Origin: Apilactobacillus apisilvae
GTDB lineage: Bacteria; Bacillota; Bacilli; Lactobacillales; Lactobacillaceae
Length of the DNA stretch: 64,000 nucleotides
Reading direction: 5' to 3'
Assembly (NCBI RefSeq): GCF_023380225.1
Contig: NZ_CP093362.1
Coordinates: 1,054,001 to 1,118,000, forward strand
Shown here piece by piece: positions 19,980 to 62,497 of the stretch. The notes under the pieces were generated by a model that was not told the DNA's origin, made no database searches, and was given only the letters and a program-made list of their open reading frames with translations. Within the stretch, counting starts at the first letter, position 1. Each line of letters starts with the position of its first letter. The position numbers were made by a program, and so were the translations under genes.

Positions 19980-20012
19980 CTTAAGTTTTCTTTAAGCTTT
20001 CACTGTTATATT
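19980..20012 (+). promoter_or_regulatory. CiaR-like promoter A: CTTAAG-N5-TTTAAG-N10-TATATT
   Basis: Direct repeats CTTAAG (19980-19985) and TTTAAG (19991-19996) lie 11 bp apart and exactly 10 bases from the -10 TATATT (20007-20012). That is the geometry of streptococcal CiaR-activated promoters. The element recurs at 34776-34808. Confidence 0.6.
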
Positions 20013-20044
20013 AATAACAATCCAAAAAGGAAGAAGGTAATTCC

Positions 20045-20128
20045 ATGAAGAATAATGAAAATTATAGATACAAAACTGTTTTTAGAATTAATCGAACTTG
20101 GCAAGCCGCTTCCTTAAAGTGGATTTGA
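20045..20128 (+). CDS. 27-aa basic peptide, AASLKW family member 1
   Basis: A short frame (MKNNENYRYK..., ending in the motif WQAASLKWI) with SD AAGAAGG seven bases before ATG. Its promoter and 5' UTR are identical over 35 bp to those of the 33-aa gene at 34642, and both end in TW/DW-x-AASLKWI. Net positive, two Trp, no signal peptide. It could be a secreted signal, a small protein or a dual-function RNA; no known family recognised. A terminator follows at 20194. Confidence 0.55.
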   Translation: MKNNENYRYKTVFRINRTWQAASLKWI

Positions 20129-20193
20129 AAGTAAGAAGACTTTCAACTTAAATTGCATATAAAACTTCCCCTACTATAAATGAGTATAAAATG

Positions 20194-20220
20194 CCCAGCT
20201 GAAAAGCTGGGTATTTTTTT
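20194..20220 (+). terminator. Terminator after the 27-aa peptide gene
   Basis: CCCAGCT pairs with AGCTGGG, followed by a run of T. It ends at the 3' end of the convergent rep gene. Confidence 0.8.
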
Positions 20221-21046
20221 ATTCATCTAATTGCACAATCGGAATATTAAATCCCTTTAATTGATCAATCTGCATTCTTTCATGATAAAGTTCCGCGGTA
20301 TCATCAAAAAACTTATATAGTGCTTTGGCAATATAAGCAGCTTTATTATTAATTTTAGGATTAGTCCTAGTTTGAACAATTAAATTACGCATTGTTTTGA
20401 ATAAATCATTTTGCATATAAAAATTAGTTTCAAAACTTAATGCATTTTTAGCTTTACTATAATCATGCTTAATTGCACGGGTTAGTGAGGCTTTTTTGGT
20501 CTTAAAGATTAATTGAGCGTACTGGTATAGACAGCTAGCATTATCTGAATATTTAACTAAGGTATTAATTAATTCTTGATCAAAATAGGCATTATTTTTC
20601 AGGCCATCGACGATATTTTGCATTAAATCAAACTGGCTAATTTTAACCTCTGGTGTAACAGCTGTTTCAGATATTATTTGTTTAGAGTTAGTTTGATTAG
20701 GAGTTATTTTTTCAACTTTACTATGTTTATTATCTAAACTATCGTCATGAAAGCTTGGTAAAAAGAATCTAGTTGCACCGTTAAAAACTTTCTTTTTAAC
20801 AATATAACCCAATTTAGCTAATTTTTTATAGGCATTAATAACCGTATTACGACCGACACCTAAATCTTTAATCATTTCTTCCACGGTATAAATTACATAG
20901 TAGGAATTTACTTTTTTATCAAAAAATTCACGGCGCTTAATGGAAGATTGCATCCGGTCATATAAGTAGGCATAAGCTAATCTTGCATCGTTGTTTAAAC
21001 GGTCATCTTTGCGGAGTTCTACATCAAATTTTATAAATTGTTTCAT
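20219..21046 (-). CDS. RepA_N-like replication initiator protein
   Basis: 275 aa. The N-terminal ~115 residues look like the winged-helix RepA_N domain: KFDVELRKDDRLNNDARLAY, AYLYDRMQSSIKR, YYVIYTVEEMIKDLGVGRNT, YKKLAKLGYIVKKK. The C-terminal part is helical. Such proteins start theta replication of Gram-positive plasmids. Its upstream region carries an antisense RNA gene and leader terminator as in plasmid copy control. No par genes or integrase were seen, so it may be an integrated plasmid remnant. SD AAAGGATGG precedes the ATG. Confidence 0.75.
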   Translation of the reverse strand: MKQFIKFDVELRKDDRLNNDARLAYAYLYDRMQSSIKRREFFDKKVNSYYVIYTVEEMIKDLGVGRNTVINAYKKLAKLGYIVKKKVFNGATRFFLPSFHDDSLDNKHSKVEKITPNQTNSKQIISETAVTPEVKISQFDLMQNIVDGLKNNAYFDQELINTLVKYSDNASCLYQYAQLIFKTKKASLTRAIKHDYSKAKNALSFETNFYMQNDLFKTMRNLIVQTRTNPKINNKAAYIAKALYKFFDDTAELYHERMQIDQLKGFNIPIVQLDE

Positions 21047-21555: not shown

Positions 21556-21683
21556 AAAGCCGTCCCATTATATAACTTTGGCGAGTTATGGGATAGCTTA
21601 AACAGTTGTTCGTAACTTATGTCACCGTCTTTTAAACGGCTTTACTAGGAAGTCCTGTTAGAGCAGGACTTCTTTTTATTTAC
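21552..21683 (-). ncRNA. Candidate antisense antitoxin RNA
   Basis: A minus-strand promoter (ATGACA, 17 bases, TATAAT at 21690-21718) would drive an RNA overlapping the toxin mRNA 3' end. It would stop at GGGACGGC plus TTTTTATTT near 21553. Convergent overlap of ~130 nt is typical of TxpA/RatA-type pairs. Confidence 0.55.
21649..21679 (+). terminator. Terminator of the toxin transcript
   Basis: GAAGTCCTG pairs with CAGGACTTC, followed by TTTTTATTT. Confidence 0.8.
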
Positions 21684-21684
21684 A

Positions 21685-21704
21685 GACATATTATATAATA
21701 TGTC
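21685..21704. promoter_or_regulatory. Perfect 20-bp palindrome over the antitoxin promoter
   Basis: GACATATTATATAATATGTC is self-complementary along its full length and contains the antitoxin -10 on the minus strand and a second TATAAT on the plus strand. Confidence 0.6.
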
Positions 21705-30715: not shown

Positions 30716-32908
30716 TTATTTAATTTTTAAAGTTAGTGCATTCAAAGCAACAATCACAGTGCTTAGTGACATTACAATAGCTCCAACCATTGGATCTAAC
30801 ATAATACCAGCAAACCCTAAAATACCGGCTGCTAATGGTAGAGCTAAAATATTATAACCAGCTCCCCACCATAGATTTTGAATCATTTTGCGGTGAGAAT
30901 TTTTAGCCAATTTAACTAAGCTAACAATATCATTAGGGTCACTATTAACCAAGACTACATCAGCTGAATCAATGGCAACGTCAGTACCAGAACCAATTGC
31001 GATACCAATATCTGATTGAGTCAAACTAGGTGCATCGTTAATTCCATCACCGATAAAAATTGTTTTACCTTGTTTTTGATAACTTAATACATTTTTTTGC
31101 TTATCTTCTGGTAATAATTGTGCTTTAAATTCACTAATACCCAATAATGAAGCTACTTTTGCAGCAGCATCTTTATTATCACCAGTTAACATCACTGGCG
31201 TAATATTTTGGCTTAGAAGATATTGCACCATTGCTTTGGAACCTTTTTTAATGGAGTCACCTTCAGCAATAAAACCAATTGCTACATTATCTTTAATGAC
31301 ATAACTTACGGAGTTACCATCATTTAAATAATTTTGGGTATCTTGAGCAGTGTATTTAATATTATTAGCATCCAAATATGCTGCTGAAACAACTGCAAAA
31401 TCATTGTTGTTTAAAGTCCCTTTTACTCCGTAACCAGTGATTTGAGTATCATTTATAACTTCATATAAAGATAAACCTTTTTGTTTAGCAATTTCAGCAA
31501 TTCCATTAGCTAGTGGATGATTAGAGTTTTGTTCAACACTTGCTGCAATTTTGACAATTTCATCATCTGAATAATTTTGATCTAAACTAACGTATCCATT
31601 AACTTTGAATTTACCTTCAGTTAAAGTTCCAGTTTTATCCATTAATGCATATTTAATGTCATTGATACCGTCCAATGCATTTTTATTTCTAATCAATAGT
31701 CCATTCGTTGCAGCTAAAGAAGTTGTTCTAGAAGTAATTAGTGGCACTGCTAATCCTAAAGCATGGGGACATGCAATAATCAAAACAGTTACTGTTACTG
31801 GAATTGCAAAGCTAACTCCTCGAACAAATGACCATGCAACAAAAGCAATAATTGCAACTACTAACGCTGCATAGAACAAATAACTAGCAACTTGATTGGC
31901 AGCAGTTTCAGTTTTTGATTTAGAAGATTGTGCTTCTTGAACCATGTTTTTAACTTTTGATAAATAACCACTACTACCGGTTCCAGAAATTTTAACTTTA
32001 ATGGTTCCATCACCATTTATTGAGCCACCGATAACGTCATTATTGGTTTGTTTATTAACACTTCTGGATTCACCAGTAACTAGTGATTCATTTACTGAAG
32101 TACTACCATCATAAATTTTTCCATCAGCGGGAATTTGTTCACCTGATTTAATTAAAATTGAGTTACCAACAGCAAGTTTATTTGTTGATACATCTTTAAT
32201 ATCACCATTTTCAGAGATTAAATGCGCACTATCTGGTAATAATTTAGATAACTTATTAATAGCTGAACCGGCGTTCATAATTGAATTCATTTCAATTCGA
32301 TGACCTAACAACATAATCACAATCAAAGTGGATAATTCCCAGAAAAAGTCATTAACTTTAGGCGTGATGTTCAATATATCATTAGCAACAACTGAATAAA
32401 CACTGTATACATAAGCGACTGAAATTCCTAAAGTAATTAATGACATCATTTCAGGTTTCTTATTCTTAATTTCACCTTTGGCACCACTGAAAAATGGTGT
32501 TGAACAGTAGAAGAATAAAATACTACCTAAAATTAAAACAATAAAATTAGAACCTGGAAAAGTTAATTGAAATGGCAATTGCATGCCCATCATTGGAGAC
32601 ATTAAAATAATTGGAATTGTTAAAATTAATGAAATCCAAAATTTCTTTTTCATATCTCCCATATCCATCATGTGACCACCATGATTCATCATTTGGCTGT
32701 GATCCATTCCATTCATATCATGATCCATATGATGCATGTCATGGTCCATATGATGCATGTCATGGTCCATATTCATATTTCCCATATCATGGTGTTCGTG
32801 GTTCATATTTTTCATATCGTGACCTTCATGGCCCATGTTCATATGATCCATATTATGATCTTGATGTTCATGATTCATACTTTTCATATCATCTTTATTA
32901 TGCTTCAT
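30716..32908 (-). CDS. copB: CopB-type copper-translocating P1B ATPase
   Basis: 730 aa. The N-terminal ~85 residues are a His/Met/Asp-rich metal-binding tail. Eight membrane helices, A-domain TGES, membrane metal site CPHALGLAVP (CPH class), phosphorylation site DKTGTLTEG, HP motif NHPLANGI and hinge GDGINDAPSL. CPH pumps of this kind export copper. It overlaps copY by 11 bases and is controlled by the cop box at 33368. Confidence 0.93.
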   Translation of the reverse strand: MKHNKDDMKSMNHEHQDHNMDHMNMGHEGHDMKNMNHEHHDMGNMNMDHDMHHMDHDMHHMDHDMNGMDHSQMMNHGGHMMDMGDMKKKFWISLILTIPIILMSPMMGMQLPFQLTFPGSNFIVLILGSILFFYCSTPFFSGAKGEIKNKKPEMMSLITLGISVAYVYSVYSVVANDILNITPKVNDFFWELSTLIVIMLLGHRIEMNSIMNAGSAINKLSKLLPDSAHLISENGDIKDVSTNKLAVGNSILIKSGEQIPADGKIYDGSTSVNESLVTGESRSVNKQTNNDVIGGSINGDGTIKVKISGTGSSGYLSKVKNMVQEAQSSKSKTETAANQVASYLFYAALVVAIIAFVAWSFVRGVSFAIPVTVTVLIIACPHALGLAVPLITSRTTSLAATNGLLIRNKNALDGINDIKYALMDKTGTLTEGKFKVNGYVSLDQNYSDDEIVKIAASVEQNSNHPLANGIAEIAKQKGLSLYEVINDTQITGYGVKGTLNNNDFAVVSAAYLDANNIKYTAQDTQNYLNDGNSVSYVIKDNVAIGFIAEGDSIKKGSKAMVQYLLSQNITPVMLTGDNKDAAAKVASLLGISEFKAQLLPEDKQKNVLSYQKQGKTIFIGDGINDAPSLTQSDIGIAIGSGTDVAIDSADVVLVNSDPNDIVSLVKLAKNSHRKMIQNLWWGAGYNILALPLAAGILGFAGIMLDPMVGAIVMSLSTVIVALNALTLKIK
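32724..32765. repeat. Two tandem 21-bp units in the CopB metal-binding tail
   Basis: Two identical 21-bp units (32724-32744 and 32745-32765) encode repeated H/M/D heptads. This is a recent in-frame duplication that lengthens the metal-binding tail. Confidence 0.85.
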
Positions 32909-33338
32909 TAGATTTACCTCCTAAACATTTACATTCAACTTTATCCGGTGCACCAGCTTTTTTTTGTTCTAGTGTTTTGATTAAACCATCAATATCATTC
33001 TTACTTAATTCGATATTATTAATTAAATAATCAAGCGTTGATCCATATTGCATACAACAAATTTCTTTAAATAAATGCATGATACTCATCTTGTAAGCTT
33101 CATCTTCATCAACTAAACAGTAATAAAAATTTTTATTACCTTCTTTTTTAACTCCAATAATTTTTTTATTTTTTAGTCTAGTAATTAAAGTTTTTATCGT
33201 TGACTCACTCCAATTATTTTTTTTAGTAAGTAAATCAATGATTGTTTTACTTTTTGCATTTCCAAGCGTCCATAGAATCCGCATAACTTCCCATTCAGCA
33301 TTGGATATCGATTGCACTTTATTATTCACAAATAACAC
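32898..33338 (-). CDS. copY: CopY/TcrY-family copper repressor
   Basis: 146 aa. BlaI/MecI-type winged helix (SNAEWEVMRILWTLGNAKSKTIIDLL, WSESTIKTLITRLKNKKII). The C-terminus has only one Cys pair (ECKCLGG) in place of the usual CxCxxxxCxC hook; a further CC occurs in FKEICCMQYG. It releases DNA on copper binding. It sits directly upstream of copB, with the operator TACATTTGTA before it. Confidence 0.88.
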   Translation of the reverse strand: MLFVNNKVQSISNAEWEVMRILWTLGNAKSKTIIDLLTKKNNWSESTIKTLITRLKNKKIIGVKKEGNKNFYYCLVDEDEAYKMSIMHLFKEICCMQYGSTLDYLINNIELSKNDIDGLIKTLEQKKAGAPDKVECKCLGGKSNEA

Positions 33339-34529: not shown

Positions 34530-34563
34530 ATTTTTATTCGTGATTATTGAATGTTAATCAAAT

Positions 34564-34605
34564 AAAAAGTGCTCAGTTAGAATTATTCTAGCTGAGCACT
34601 TTTTA
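34564..34605. terminator. Bidirectional terminator
   Basis: AAAAGTGCTCAG...CTGAGCACTTTT with an inner TAGAA/TTCTA pairing. It serves the oxidoreductase (+) and the 33-aa peptide gene (-). Confidence 0.9.
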
Positions 34606-34641
34606 TTAATGGGGGTATATATTTTACAATCTATTTTTAAT

Positions 34642-34743
34642 TTATTTATTAGTTATCCACTTTAGGGAAGCGGCTTTCCAATCGCGACTAACTCGCAAGT
34701 TAAATTTATATTTATGATTTTTATTTACTTCATTTTTGATCAT
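34642..34743 (-). CDS. 33-aa basic peptide, AASLKW family member 2
   Basis: Starts MIKNEVNKNHKYKFNLRVSR and continues into DWKAASLKWITNK; SD AAGAAGG seven bases before ATG. It shares the core W-x-AASLKWI with the 27-aa peptide at 20045, and 35 bp of promoter plus 5' UTR are identical. Differences within the shared core are mostly synonymous (CTA/TTA, ATA/ATT), mildly favouring a translated product. Strongly basic, no signal peptide. Function unknown. Confidence 0.55.
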   Translation of the reverse strand: MIKNEVNKNHKYKFNLRVSRDWKAASLKWITNK

Positions 34744-34775
34744 TGTAATGCCTTCTTCCTTTTTGGATTGTTATT

Positions 34776-34808
34776 AATATAACAGGCATTTCTTAAATGA
34801 AACTTAAG
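34776..34808 (-). promoter_or_regulatory. CiaR-like promoter B: CTTAAG-N5-TTTAAG-N10-TATATT
   Basis: On the minus strand CTTAAG (34808-34803), five bases, TTTAAG (34797-34792), ten bases, then TATATT (34781-34776): the same layout as promoter A at 19980. Confidence 0.6.
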
Positions 34809-34814
34809 AGAGTT

Positions 34815-34937
34815 CTAATTAAATATCATTTTCGCAAAAAACGATACAATAATACAAATTAATCTTGGGATTCCATCGAAAGCTATTTCAAATAATCCAT
34901 CTATTATGCAATTAGTAAATTTTTTAGTTTTCTTCAT
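34815..34937 (-). CDS. 40-aa basic hydrophobic peptide (tandem pair, second)
   Basis: Starts MKKTKKFTNCIIDGLFEIAF and ends ICIIVSFFAKMIFN, with SD GGGAGG ahead. Lys-rich head, hydrophobic body with two Cys, tail FFAKMIF. It aligns with the 36-aa product 23 bases upstream (MKKNNKF..., FFSKLIFR), and both share the leader GGGAGGTTTTTC(Y)TATG. No signal-peptide cleavage site. It may be a membrane-active peptide or signal; no family recognised. Confidence 0.5.
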   Translation of the reverse strand: MKKTKKFTNCIIDGLFEIAFDGIPRLICIIVSFFAKMIFN

Positions 34938-34960: not shown

Positions 34961-35071
34961 TTATCTAAAAATTAACTTAGAAAAGAACGATATTAATCCC
35001 ATTGTTCCTTGTAAAATCACTTCAAAAAAAGTTCTAGGTGAATTTTCACTAAATTTGTTATTTTTCTTCAT
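34961..35071 (-). CDS. 36-aa basic hydrophobic peptide (tandem pair, first)
   Basis: Starts MKKNNKFSENSPRTFFEVIL and ends MGLISFFSKLIFR, with SD GGGAGG. Net charge about +4, amphipathic C-terminal half. It is the first gene after a good promoter (TTGCTT-16-TATAAT, 35112-35139) and a paralog of the 40-aa product. Size and charge recall PSM-like or leaderless bacteriocin peptides, but that is only a resemblance. Confidence 0.5.
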   Translation of the reverse strand: MKKNNKFSENSPRTFFEVILQGTMGLISFFSKLIFR

Positions 35072-57479: not shown

Positions 57480-57499
57480 ATTCAACAATTAAACAAGAC

Positions 57500-57740
57500 G
57501 TTGAACAGGAATTTTAATTAATCGATATTCTACAGAAAGCTTAGGGTAGTGAGACTAAGTAATATCATTATTAAATCGTACCTGAGAGTCATTTTTCGAA
57601 ATGAGTAGAAAAAATCGTTAGCCTGCGTTAACAGCTGAAGTTTTATAACTTCTTGAGCTAGTATTTGTGAAAATACTAGAAATTGAGGTGGCACCACGAT
57701 TTATTCGTCCTCTTGGATTTATTCCAAGAGGACTTTTTTA
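57500..57740 (+). promoter_or_regulatory. T-box riboswitch 1 (likely tRNA-Arg, CGU)
   Basis: Stem I apical hairpin CTTAG...CTAAG; candidate specifier CGU at 57577 followed by the usual A; stem III CTAGTATTT/AAATACTAG; T-box GAGGTGGCACCACG (57685-57698); terminator GTCCTCTTGGA/TCCAAGAGGAC plus T run. The UGGC bulge fits a tRNA ending GCCA. Confidence 0.85.
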
Positions 57741-62194: not shown

Positions 62195-62497
62195 TGGCAA
62201 ATAAATATATATAAAAGCGTTGAAATAGAAAGAGTAATTTTTACATGAATTTCTAGAGAGATTCCGTTTGGTGCAAGGAATTAAGGAGTGTAAGGATGAA
62301 AATCATCTATTAGCTGCCAGGCAAATTAAGTAGTCTGGGCTGGGAATTCCCATTATTGAATCTGCAAATCAACAGGTTTGTTTGAGTGATATCGTTTTGC
62401 CATATTATAAATGAATTTAAAAACGGTATAACAAAAGGTGGTACCGCGCGCAAGCGCCCTTTATTTCGTGTATGCGAAATATGGGGCGCTTTTTTTA
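62195..62497 (+). promoter_or_regulatory. T-box riboswitch 3 (likely tRNA-Ile, AUC)
   Basis: Classic long form. Stem I base AATAGA (62224) pairs with TCTATT (62306); apical GAGAGATTCC and GGTGCAAGGAAT; specifier AUC at 62302 followed by A; T-box AAGGTGGTACCGCG (62435-62448); terminator AGCGCCCT/GGGGCGCT then T7 (62453-62497). UGGU fits a tRNA ending ACCA, as tRNA-Ile. Confidence 0.88.

Follow-up and report, generated by a model that had tools for sequence, protein, structure and literature searches.

Two loci in the genome of Apilactobacillus apisilvae carry a short open reading frame (ORF) behind the same promoter, raising the question of whether such a unit serves as a gene for a small peptide, for a regulatory RNA, or for both. 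They lie in a stretch of 64,000 nucleotides (the window; NZ_CP093362.1, positions 1,054,001 to 1,118,000), at 34563-34808 on the minus strand (locus 1) and at 19980-20217 on the plus strand (locus 2). A preliminary description had read them as a duplicated promoter-plus-peptide unit, and the layout common to both loci confirms this. As a whole, its interpretation is partly supported; it overlooked a CiaR-type box, the terminators and a third copy, as well as the resemblance to csRNA genes.

Layout of the duplicated unit

The order of elements is the same in both copies: a direct repeat CTTAAG-N5-TTTAAG, ten bases, the hexamer TATATT preceded by TGT, a 26-nt leader containing GGAAGAAGG, an ORF, a C-rich stretch and a terminator hairpin. 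At locus 1 (all on the minus strand) the CiaR-type repeat, recognized from the sequence and the layout described in PMC3091779, occupies 34792-34808, and the -10 element follows ten bases later at 34776-34781. The RNA is predicted to start at 34769, seven bases past the -10 according to the rule in the same source. The leader with GGAAGAAGG (34744-34769) could pair with the AASLKW codons in the predicted fold. The ORF of 33 codons and a stop (34642-34743) encodes MIKNEVNKNHKYKFNLRVSRDWKAASLKWITNK, and its AASLKWI core codons (34654-34674) are the pairing partner of the leader. The C-rich stretch ACCCCCAT (34609-34616) is predicted to be unpaired (0.92-0.96), and the terminator hairpin with its T run (34563-34604) folds at -21.4 kcal/mol, although it is absent from the output of a consensus terminator scan.

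At locus 2 (plus strand) the repeat lies at 19980-19996, the -10 TATATT at 20007-20012 and the predicted RNA start at 20019. The leader (20019-20044) again pairs in the fold with the core codons (20105-20125) of the ORF, which has 27 codons and a stop (20045-20128) and encodes MKNNENYRYKTVFRINRTWQAASLKWI. The C-rich stretch CTTCCCCTA (20165-20173) is mostly unpaired in the fold (0.74-0.96), and the terminator hairpin with T run (20188-20217) was found by both fold and scan. The AASLKWI core lies near or at the ORF end in both copies, and the predicted RNAs are 201 and 207 nt in size.

The 35 identical bases reported earlier for the two loci were recovered as CTGTTATATTAATAACAATCCAAAAAGGAAGAAGG, as were the 33- and 27-residue peptides with a common core at 34642-34743 and 20045-20128, but the shared unit proper begins further upstream, at the repeats. 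With up to three mismatches allowed, the window has two occurrences of the core DNA, whereas none of 100 shuffled versions has any. The short repeat alone, with one mismatch allowed, was seen twice in the 64 kb against 1.03 expected, which is not above chance.

The initiator gene adjoining locus 2 (20219-21046, minus strand; Pfam RepA_N and Bac_RepA_C) is of the RepA plasmid type and lies on the main contig, possibly marking an integrated plasmid. About 1.5 kb from the same locus, an Rfam match to RatA, an antitoxin RNA belonging to a type I toxin system, was found at 21599-21693 on the minus strand (54.4 bits, gathering threshold 49). Two ORFs of 40 and 36 aa lie in tandem just upstream of locus 1 (34815-34937 and 34961-35071, minus strand), with similar, amphipathic products (MKKTKKFTN...FFAKMIFN and MKKNNKFSE...FFSKLIFR) and no Pfam match. 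Genes for a heavy-metal-type ATPase and a Penicillinase_R (CopY-like) protein are located near locus 1 (30716-33338, minus strand), and two T-box leaders are present at 57492-57715 and 62211-62464 on the plus strand.

The promoter box and a CiaR-like regulator

Streptococcal csRNA genes were found by Marx et al. in 2010 through two TTTAAG motifs five bases apart, followed by ten bases, a -10 element and a terminator within 250 bases, and the same study revised the repeat to NTTAAG-N5-TTTAAG (PMC3091779). Both window loci match these spacings (NTTAAG-N5-TTTAAG, ten bases, a TATAAT-like -10), and at both a terminator lies within 250 bases of the -10, that of locus 1 being derived from the fold. 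They thus resemble csRNA genes in promoter repeat and spacing, in the terminator that soon follows and in the presence of several copies per genome (PMC3091779, PMC4507080). The published csRNA sizes are 51-202 nt (PMC3091779), so that one of our copies, at 207 nt, is slightly longer. The nonamer [A/C]UCCUAAA[A/C], described as present in all but four csRNAs (PMC3091779), is absent from both window RNAs, and its closest counterpart is CCCCUAAAA in the B-type copy of A. micheneri. The units further differ from csRNAs in carrying a conserved ORF, some codons of which can pair with the leader, and in their host, Apilactobacillus rather than streptococci. Because csRNAs are defined as non-coding, and the units have an ORF and lack the nonamer, we do not file them as csRNAs. 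The csRNAs were described as streptococcal, with no CiaH homologue reported in Lactobacillus in the 2010 account (PMC3091779), and our literature search found no report of csRNAs in Lactobacillaceae or of an AASLKWI peptide.

The 1.55 Mb genome has the full pattern (repeat, N10 and TATANT, no mismatch) at 3 sites and a reversed-pattern control at none. A third unit of the same genome lies outside the window (G000:C1:1299657, plus strand) and encodes a diverged relative, MTMLRQQILMDPTSLNENNTIMIGRYELKLKGGHIWKPKTFKWLNP (the own C copy), 20 residues of which align without gaps with both window peptides. Across the genus there are 16 sites in 11 of 16 genomes (reversed pattern, 0), and across Lactobacillaceae 63 sites in 41 of 397 genomes and 9 of 40 genera (reversed pattern, 1). 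As a positive control, 22 of 78 order-level genomes were taken: all 11 genomes of genus g43, probably Streptococcus, had one to four sites, while one of the 11 others had a single site, and the reversed control gave 1. The segment TTAAGTTTTCTTTAAG of locus 2 is letter-identical in five g43 genomes.

Matches to Trans_reg_C above the cut-off were obtained for five genes of this genome. One, at C1:962163-962846, encodes a CiaR-like response regulator and is followed by a gene for a 433-aa histidine kinase; its helix VVEVYMSNLRKKI agrees at 9 of 13 residues with VVEVYVSKVRKKL, printed for streptococcal CiaR in PMC3091779. The regulator is present in 15 of the 16 genus genomes (E <= 1e-40, 73-100% identity), with the same helix in 15 of 15, and by eye an exact TTTAAG-N5-TTTAAG precedes its gene in 13 of the 15 genomes, one half being altered in the other two. 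Four g33 genomes likewise have the box before a response-regulator gene (domains were checked for one, L142). A homologue 58% identical to the regulator bears the name CiaR in its source, and no CiaR model was among the matches listed from NCBIfam (25 of 84). By sequence, the regulator is likely to be an ortholog of streptococcal CiaR.

Six imperfect boxes of this genome, with one or two mismatches, were opened; the regulator promoter was the most conspicuous, three may precede other genes, and the last two fall inside coding sequence. Six other genomes of the genus (L078, L079, L080, L082, L084 and L086) have a correctly spaced box upstream of a conserved gene for a 73-aa membrane-like protein, one of which was run against Pfam and gave no match. 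Two g23 genomes (L131 and L132, from position 1500) have the box before a hydrophobic ORF of 20 codons that reads MIEAISTLLAALYLYHYVNE or a close variant of it and is preceded by a good ribosome-binding site.

The encoded peptide and its relatives

Profile searches recovered homologues of the peptide in three genus genomes (three in G008, one in G009, two in G010), and a scan of named genomes placed them in Apilactobacillus micheneri, A. quenuiae and A. timberlakei. There was none in 12 of the 16 genus genomes, and no credible match among the loci opened from 381 sampled Lactobacillaceae genomes outside the genus. The protein database held six homologous sequences, one of which is the third copy of this genome.

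Over the 20-codon core, pN/pS was 0.05, 0.12 and 0.23 for the three pairs of A-type orthologues and 0.14 for locus 1 against the A-type copy of A. micheneri; over 42 codons of the C type it was 0.14, and among paralogues it ranged from 0.20 to 1.03. The low orthologue values indicate that selection maintains the reading frame in orthologous copies. Synonymous sites vary, within the seven core codons as well, while the amino acids are retained. The searches did find homologues with conserved reading frames, whose absence would have refuted the preliminary description, and the earlier argument that synonymous changes in the core speak for translation holds. There are also signs of loosening, as the A-type copy of A. 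timberlakei has C in place of W (a relative, P0126, retains W) and that of A. quenuiae lacks the ATG.

The encoded peptides are basic and polar, 27-46 aa long, and contain tryptophan. The preliminary description knew of no family with the AASLKWI core, and indeed Pfam returned only a sub-cut-off GYR match for one peptide alone, while a PDB profile search returned 0. AlphaFold2 gave no confident fold for the C-type peptide of A. micheneri from seven alignment rows (pLDDT 56, pTM 0.26).

Several other candidates were rejected. The core DNA pattern had three exact matches in 199 genomes besides the window copies; by eye, one falls within a regulator-like frame of 202 codons, the second is out of frame with the longer gene that contains it, and the third sits in an unrelated frame. 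The 27 opened loci with weak profile matches (13 further weak rows lie outside this check) all lacked the K-W core, which all 7 true members have, and no box lay up to 600 bases from their centres. One candidate outside Apilactobacillus, a Ruminococcus MAG locus (L098), encodes no such peptide. The gene family is real, and is so far seen only in one Apilactobacillus clade.

By eye, the A-type units of A. micheneri, A. quenuiae and A. timberlakei diverge from a gene resembling the Penicillinase_R (CopY-like) repressor, and the position of locus 1 may therefore be ancestral. Small hydrophobic ORFs similar to the tandem pair at locus 1 were seen by eye just upstream of C-type units at L173 and L175.

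RNA features and competing readings

On balance we lean, cautiously, towards reading the transcripts as csRNA-like RNAs, activated by a CiaR-type regulator, which encode a small basic peptide as well and keep its translation partly locked. Each locus would be an independent gene for a small RNA, some 200 nt in length, that the CiaR-like two-component system of this genome activates, with the TTAAG-N5-TTTAAG repeat as the presumed binding site in place of a -35 element. Through its exposed C-rich stretch the RNA could base-pair with other mRNAs at their Shine-Dalgarno regions and so block translation of these mRNAs, while the same RNA would yield the 27-46 aa peptide that selection has preserved. 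The distal part of the ORF may fold back and pair with the leader and the ribosome-binding region, leaving the C-rich part free; as the ORF end can fold in this way, translation is probably held low. In the dual-function RNAs RNAIII/hld, SgrS/SgrT and SR1/SR1P, one RNA likewise combines base-pairing potential with a small ORF, but their regulators and peptides differ from those of the Apilactobacillus units.

C-rich stretches lie 3' of the stop codon as ACCCCCAU, CUUCCCCUA, AUCCCCCAU (own C), UUCCCCUA (micheneri B) and UCCUCCC (micheneri C), and are mostly unpaired in folds; A-type RNAs have just CUCC or UCCU after the ORF, with no run of three C. As candidates for the anti-Shine-Dalgarno and anti-start sequence that csRNAs expose in an unpaired region, CCCCCAU is unpaired in the predicted fold at locus 1, and locus 2 has CUUCCCC with no adjoining CAU. 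For eight peptide RNAs (those of the recoding test below), C-rich clustering is extreme against mononucleotide shuffles (reached by 0 of 1000) and modest against dinucleotide shuffles (41 of 1000; 12 of 1000 for the six distinct RNAs). C-rich stretches that are predicted to be unpaired and might pair with the start regions of mRNAs would be a further likeness to streptococcal csRNAs (PMC3091779, PMC4507080); those of pneumococcus pair with the comC start region (PMC4507080). In low-GC bacteria, C-rich sRNA motifs are reported to bind Shine-Dalgarno sequences (PMC4132741). Among these, the LhrC sRNAs of Listeria are also multicopy and under envelope-stress two-component control, but they depend on LisRK and have another promoter, and the passages of PMC4132741 that describe them mention no peptide.

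Outside the genus, 43 of 47 box sites were opened (left out were two sites of G235 and single sites of G363 and G387). By eye, 24 of the 43 are short C-rich units lacking a convincing ORF, most of which end in a terminator-like hairpin; two (L124 and L139) had no hairpin by the script rule, and several others had weak ones of about -9 to -10.5 kcal/mol. These 24 units elsewhere in Lactobacillaceae are apparently non-coding. C-richness was counted in 17 of them, the near-duplicates L126, L128, L130, L143, L144, L153 and L155 being left out. In the 17, C-rich runs numbered 42 (29.3 expected) and CCCC runs 24 (12.7 expected), neither count being reached in 1000 dinucleotide shuffles, with 480 C against 270 G; as the units were sorted by eye with the sequence in view, C-richness may have biased the choice. 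The other 19 sites precede proteins, or a 20-codon ORF in two cases; the proteins include four LytR_cpsA_psr, four response regulators and two acyltransferases among others (one of each checked in Pfam). Within the genus, the ORF frame is kept in 3 of 4 species. In A. quenuiae the ORF of the C-type unit is deleted, with the box, TATACT, UAUCCUCCC and terminator retained, and the A-type ORF has lost its start codon while promoter, C-rich part and terminator remain. These losses favour a role of the RNA apart from the peptide, although in this one strain they may simply be decay.

The same observations bear on the possibility, which we find doubtful, that the transcripts are plain small-protein mRNAs of a CiaR-like regulon, with the peptide as sole product and the C-rich stretch and leader pairing either incidental or tuning translation or stability. 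Purifying selection on the frame and the modest C-rich clustering against dinucleotide shuffles would suit such mRNAs, but the persistence of ORF-less or start-less units in A. quenuiae, and the C-rich units without convincing ORF that the same box precedes elsewhere, argue against them.

In all nine ORF-bearing copies the best duplex between the leader and its own ORF falls on core-region codons, in two or three short helices. Eight of the nine were compared with 500 synonymous recodings each (timberlakei C entered only the swap test below). The fraction of recodings pairing at least as strongly was 0.038 at locus 1 and 0.000 at locus 2; 0.052, 0.040 and 0.014 in the A-type copies of A. micheneri, A. 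timberlakei and A. quenuiae; and 0.132 in micheneri B, 0.016 in micheneri C and 0.864 in the own C copy. Leader pairing therefore beats most recodings in seven of eight copies (0.000-0.132), the own C copy not being special, and as the copies are related these fractions are not independent. The Shine-Dalgarno sequence was more paired than the recoding mean in both window RNAs, micheneri B and both C copies tested, and less paired in all three A-type RNAs. When leaders and ORFs were swapped, the window/B group showed a group preference (-16.9 within against -10.3 and -9.1 across), the A group a weak one (-12.3 against -8.5 and -11.2) and the C group none (-8.4 against -8.9 and -7.4). By eye, the C type pairs GGUU with AACC in the own copy and GGCUU with AAGCC in A. 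micheneri and A. timberlakei, so that both sides of the pairing have changed, at a lysine position where the difference is synonymous. The suggestion that the core stretch has an RNA role is thus retained in so far as it is a pairing partner of the leader and Shine-Dalgarno sequence, but not as a seed, for which the C-rich stretch after the stop codon is likelier.

Some toxin mRNAs are kept silent by leader-to-end pairing, and the pairing of the leader with the distal ORF, together with the RatA-like RNA about 1.5 kb from locus 2, recalls a type I toxin mRNA with an antisense RNA as antitoxin. Such a toxin is improbable here: the peptides are basic and polar with no hydrophobic helix, the type I toxins being small hydrophobic proteins, and a consensus scan gave 0 promoter-like sites antisense over either RNA and fewer such sites in both regions than in shuffles (4 against 5.9 and 1 against 1.6). 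The pairing of core and leader, and the loss of both translatable ORFs in A. quenuiae, would also fit a non-coding csRNA with a fortuitous ORF and a core conserved for RNA pairing alone, but this is very improbable given that the amino acids are kept while synonymous sites vary, seven core codons included, and that the frame is kept in 3 of 4 species. A secreted bacteriocin or signalling peptide is scarcely credible, for although the product is short and cationic with tryptophan, no signal peptide or double-glycine leader was seen by eye and the C-type relative had no confident AlphaFold2 fold (pLDDT 56), and as no hydrophobic signal was seen an intracellular role would be likelier than secretion.

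Returning to csRNA-like RNAs that also encode a peptide, we suggest more tentatively that Lactobacillaceae own CiaR-type csRNAs, to which one Apilactobacillus clade may have added a peptide gene whose codons double as a lock on the ribosome-binding site, so that the RNA could switch between a closed form acting on mRNAs through the C-rich stretch and an open, peptide-making form. The close relatives with an intact ORF, a lost start codon or a deleted ORF form a natural series that could serve to tell apart what the RNA does and what the peptide does. If a CiaR-type box does drive C-rich small RNAs in several Lactobacillaceae genera, such control would extend to food bacteria and to insect- and flower-associated bacteria.
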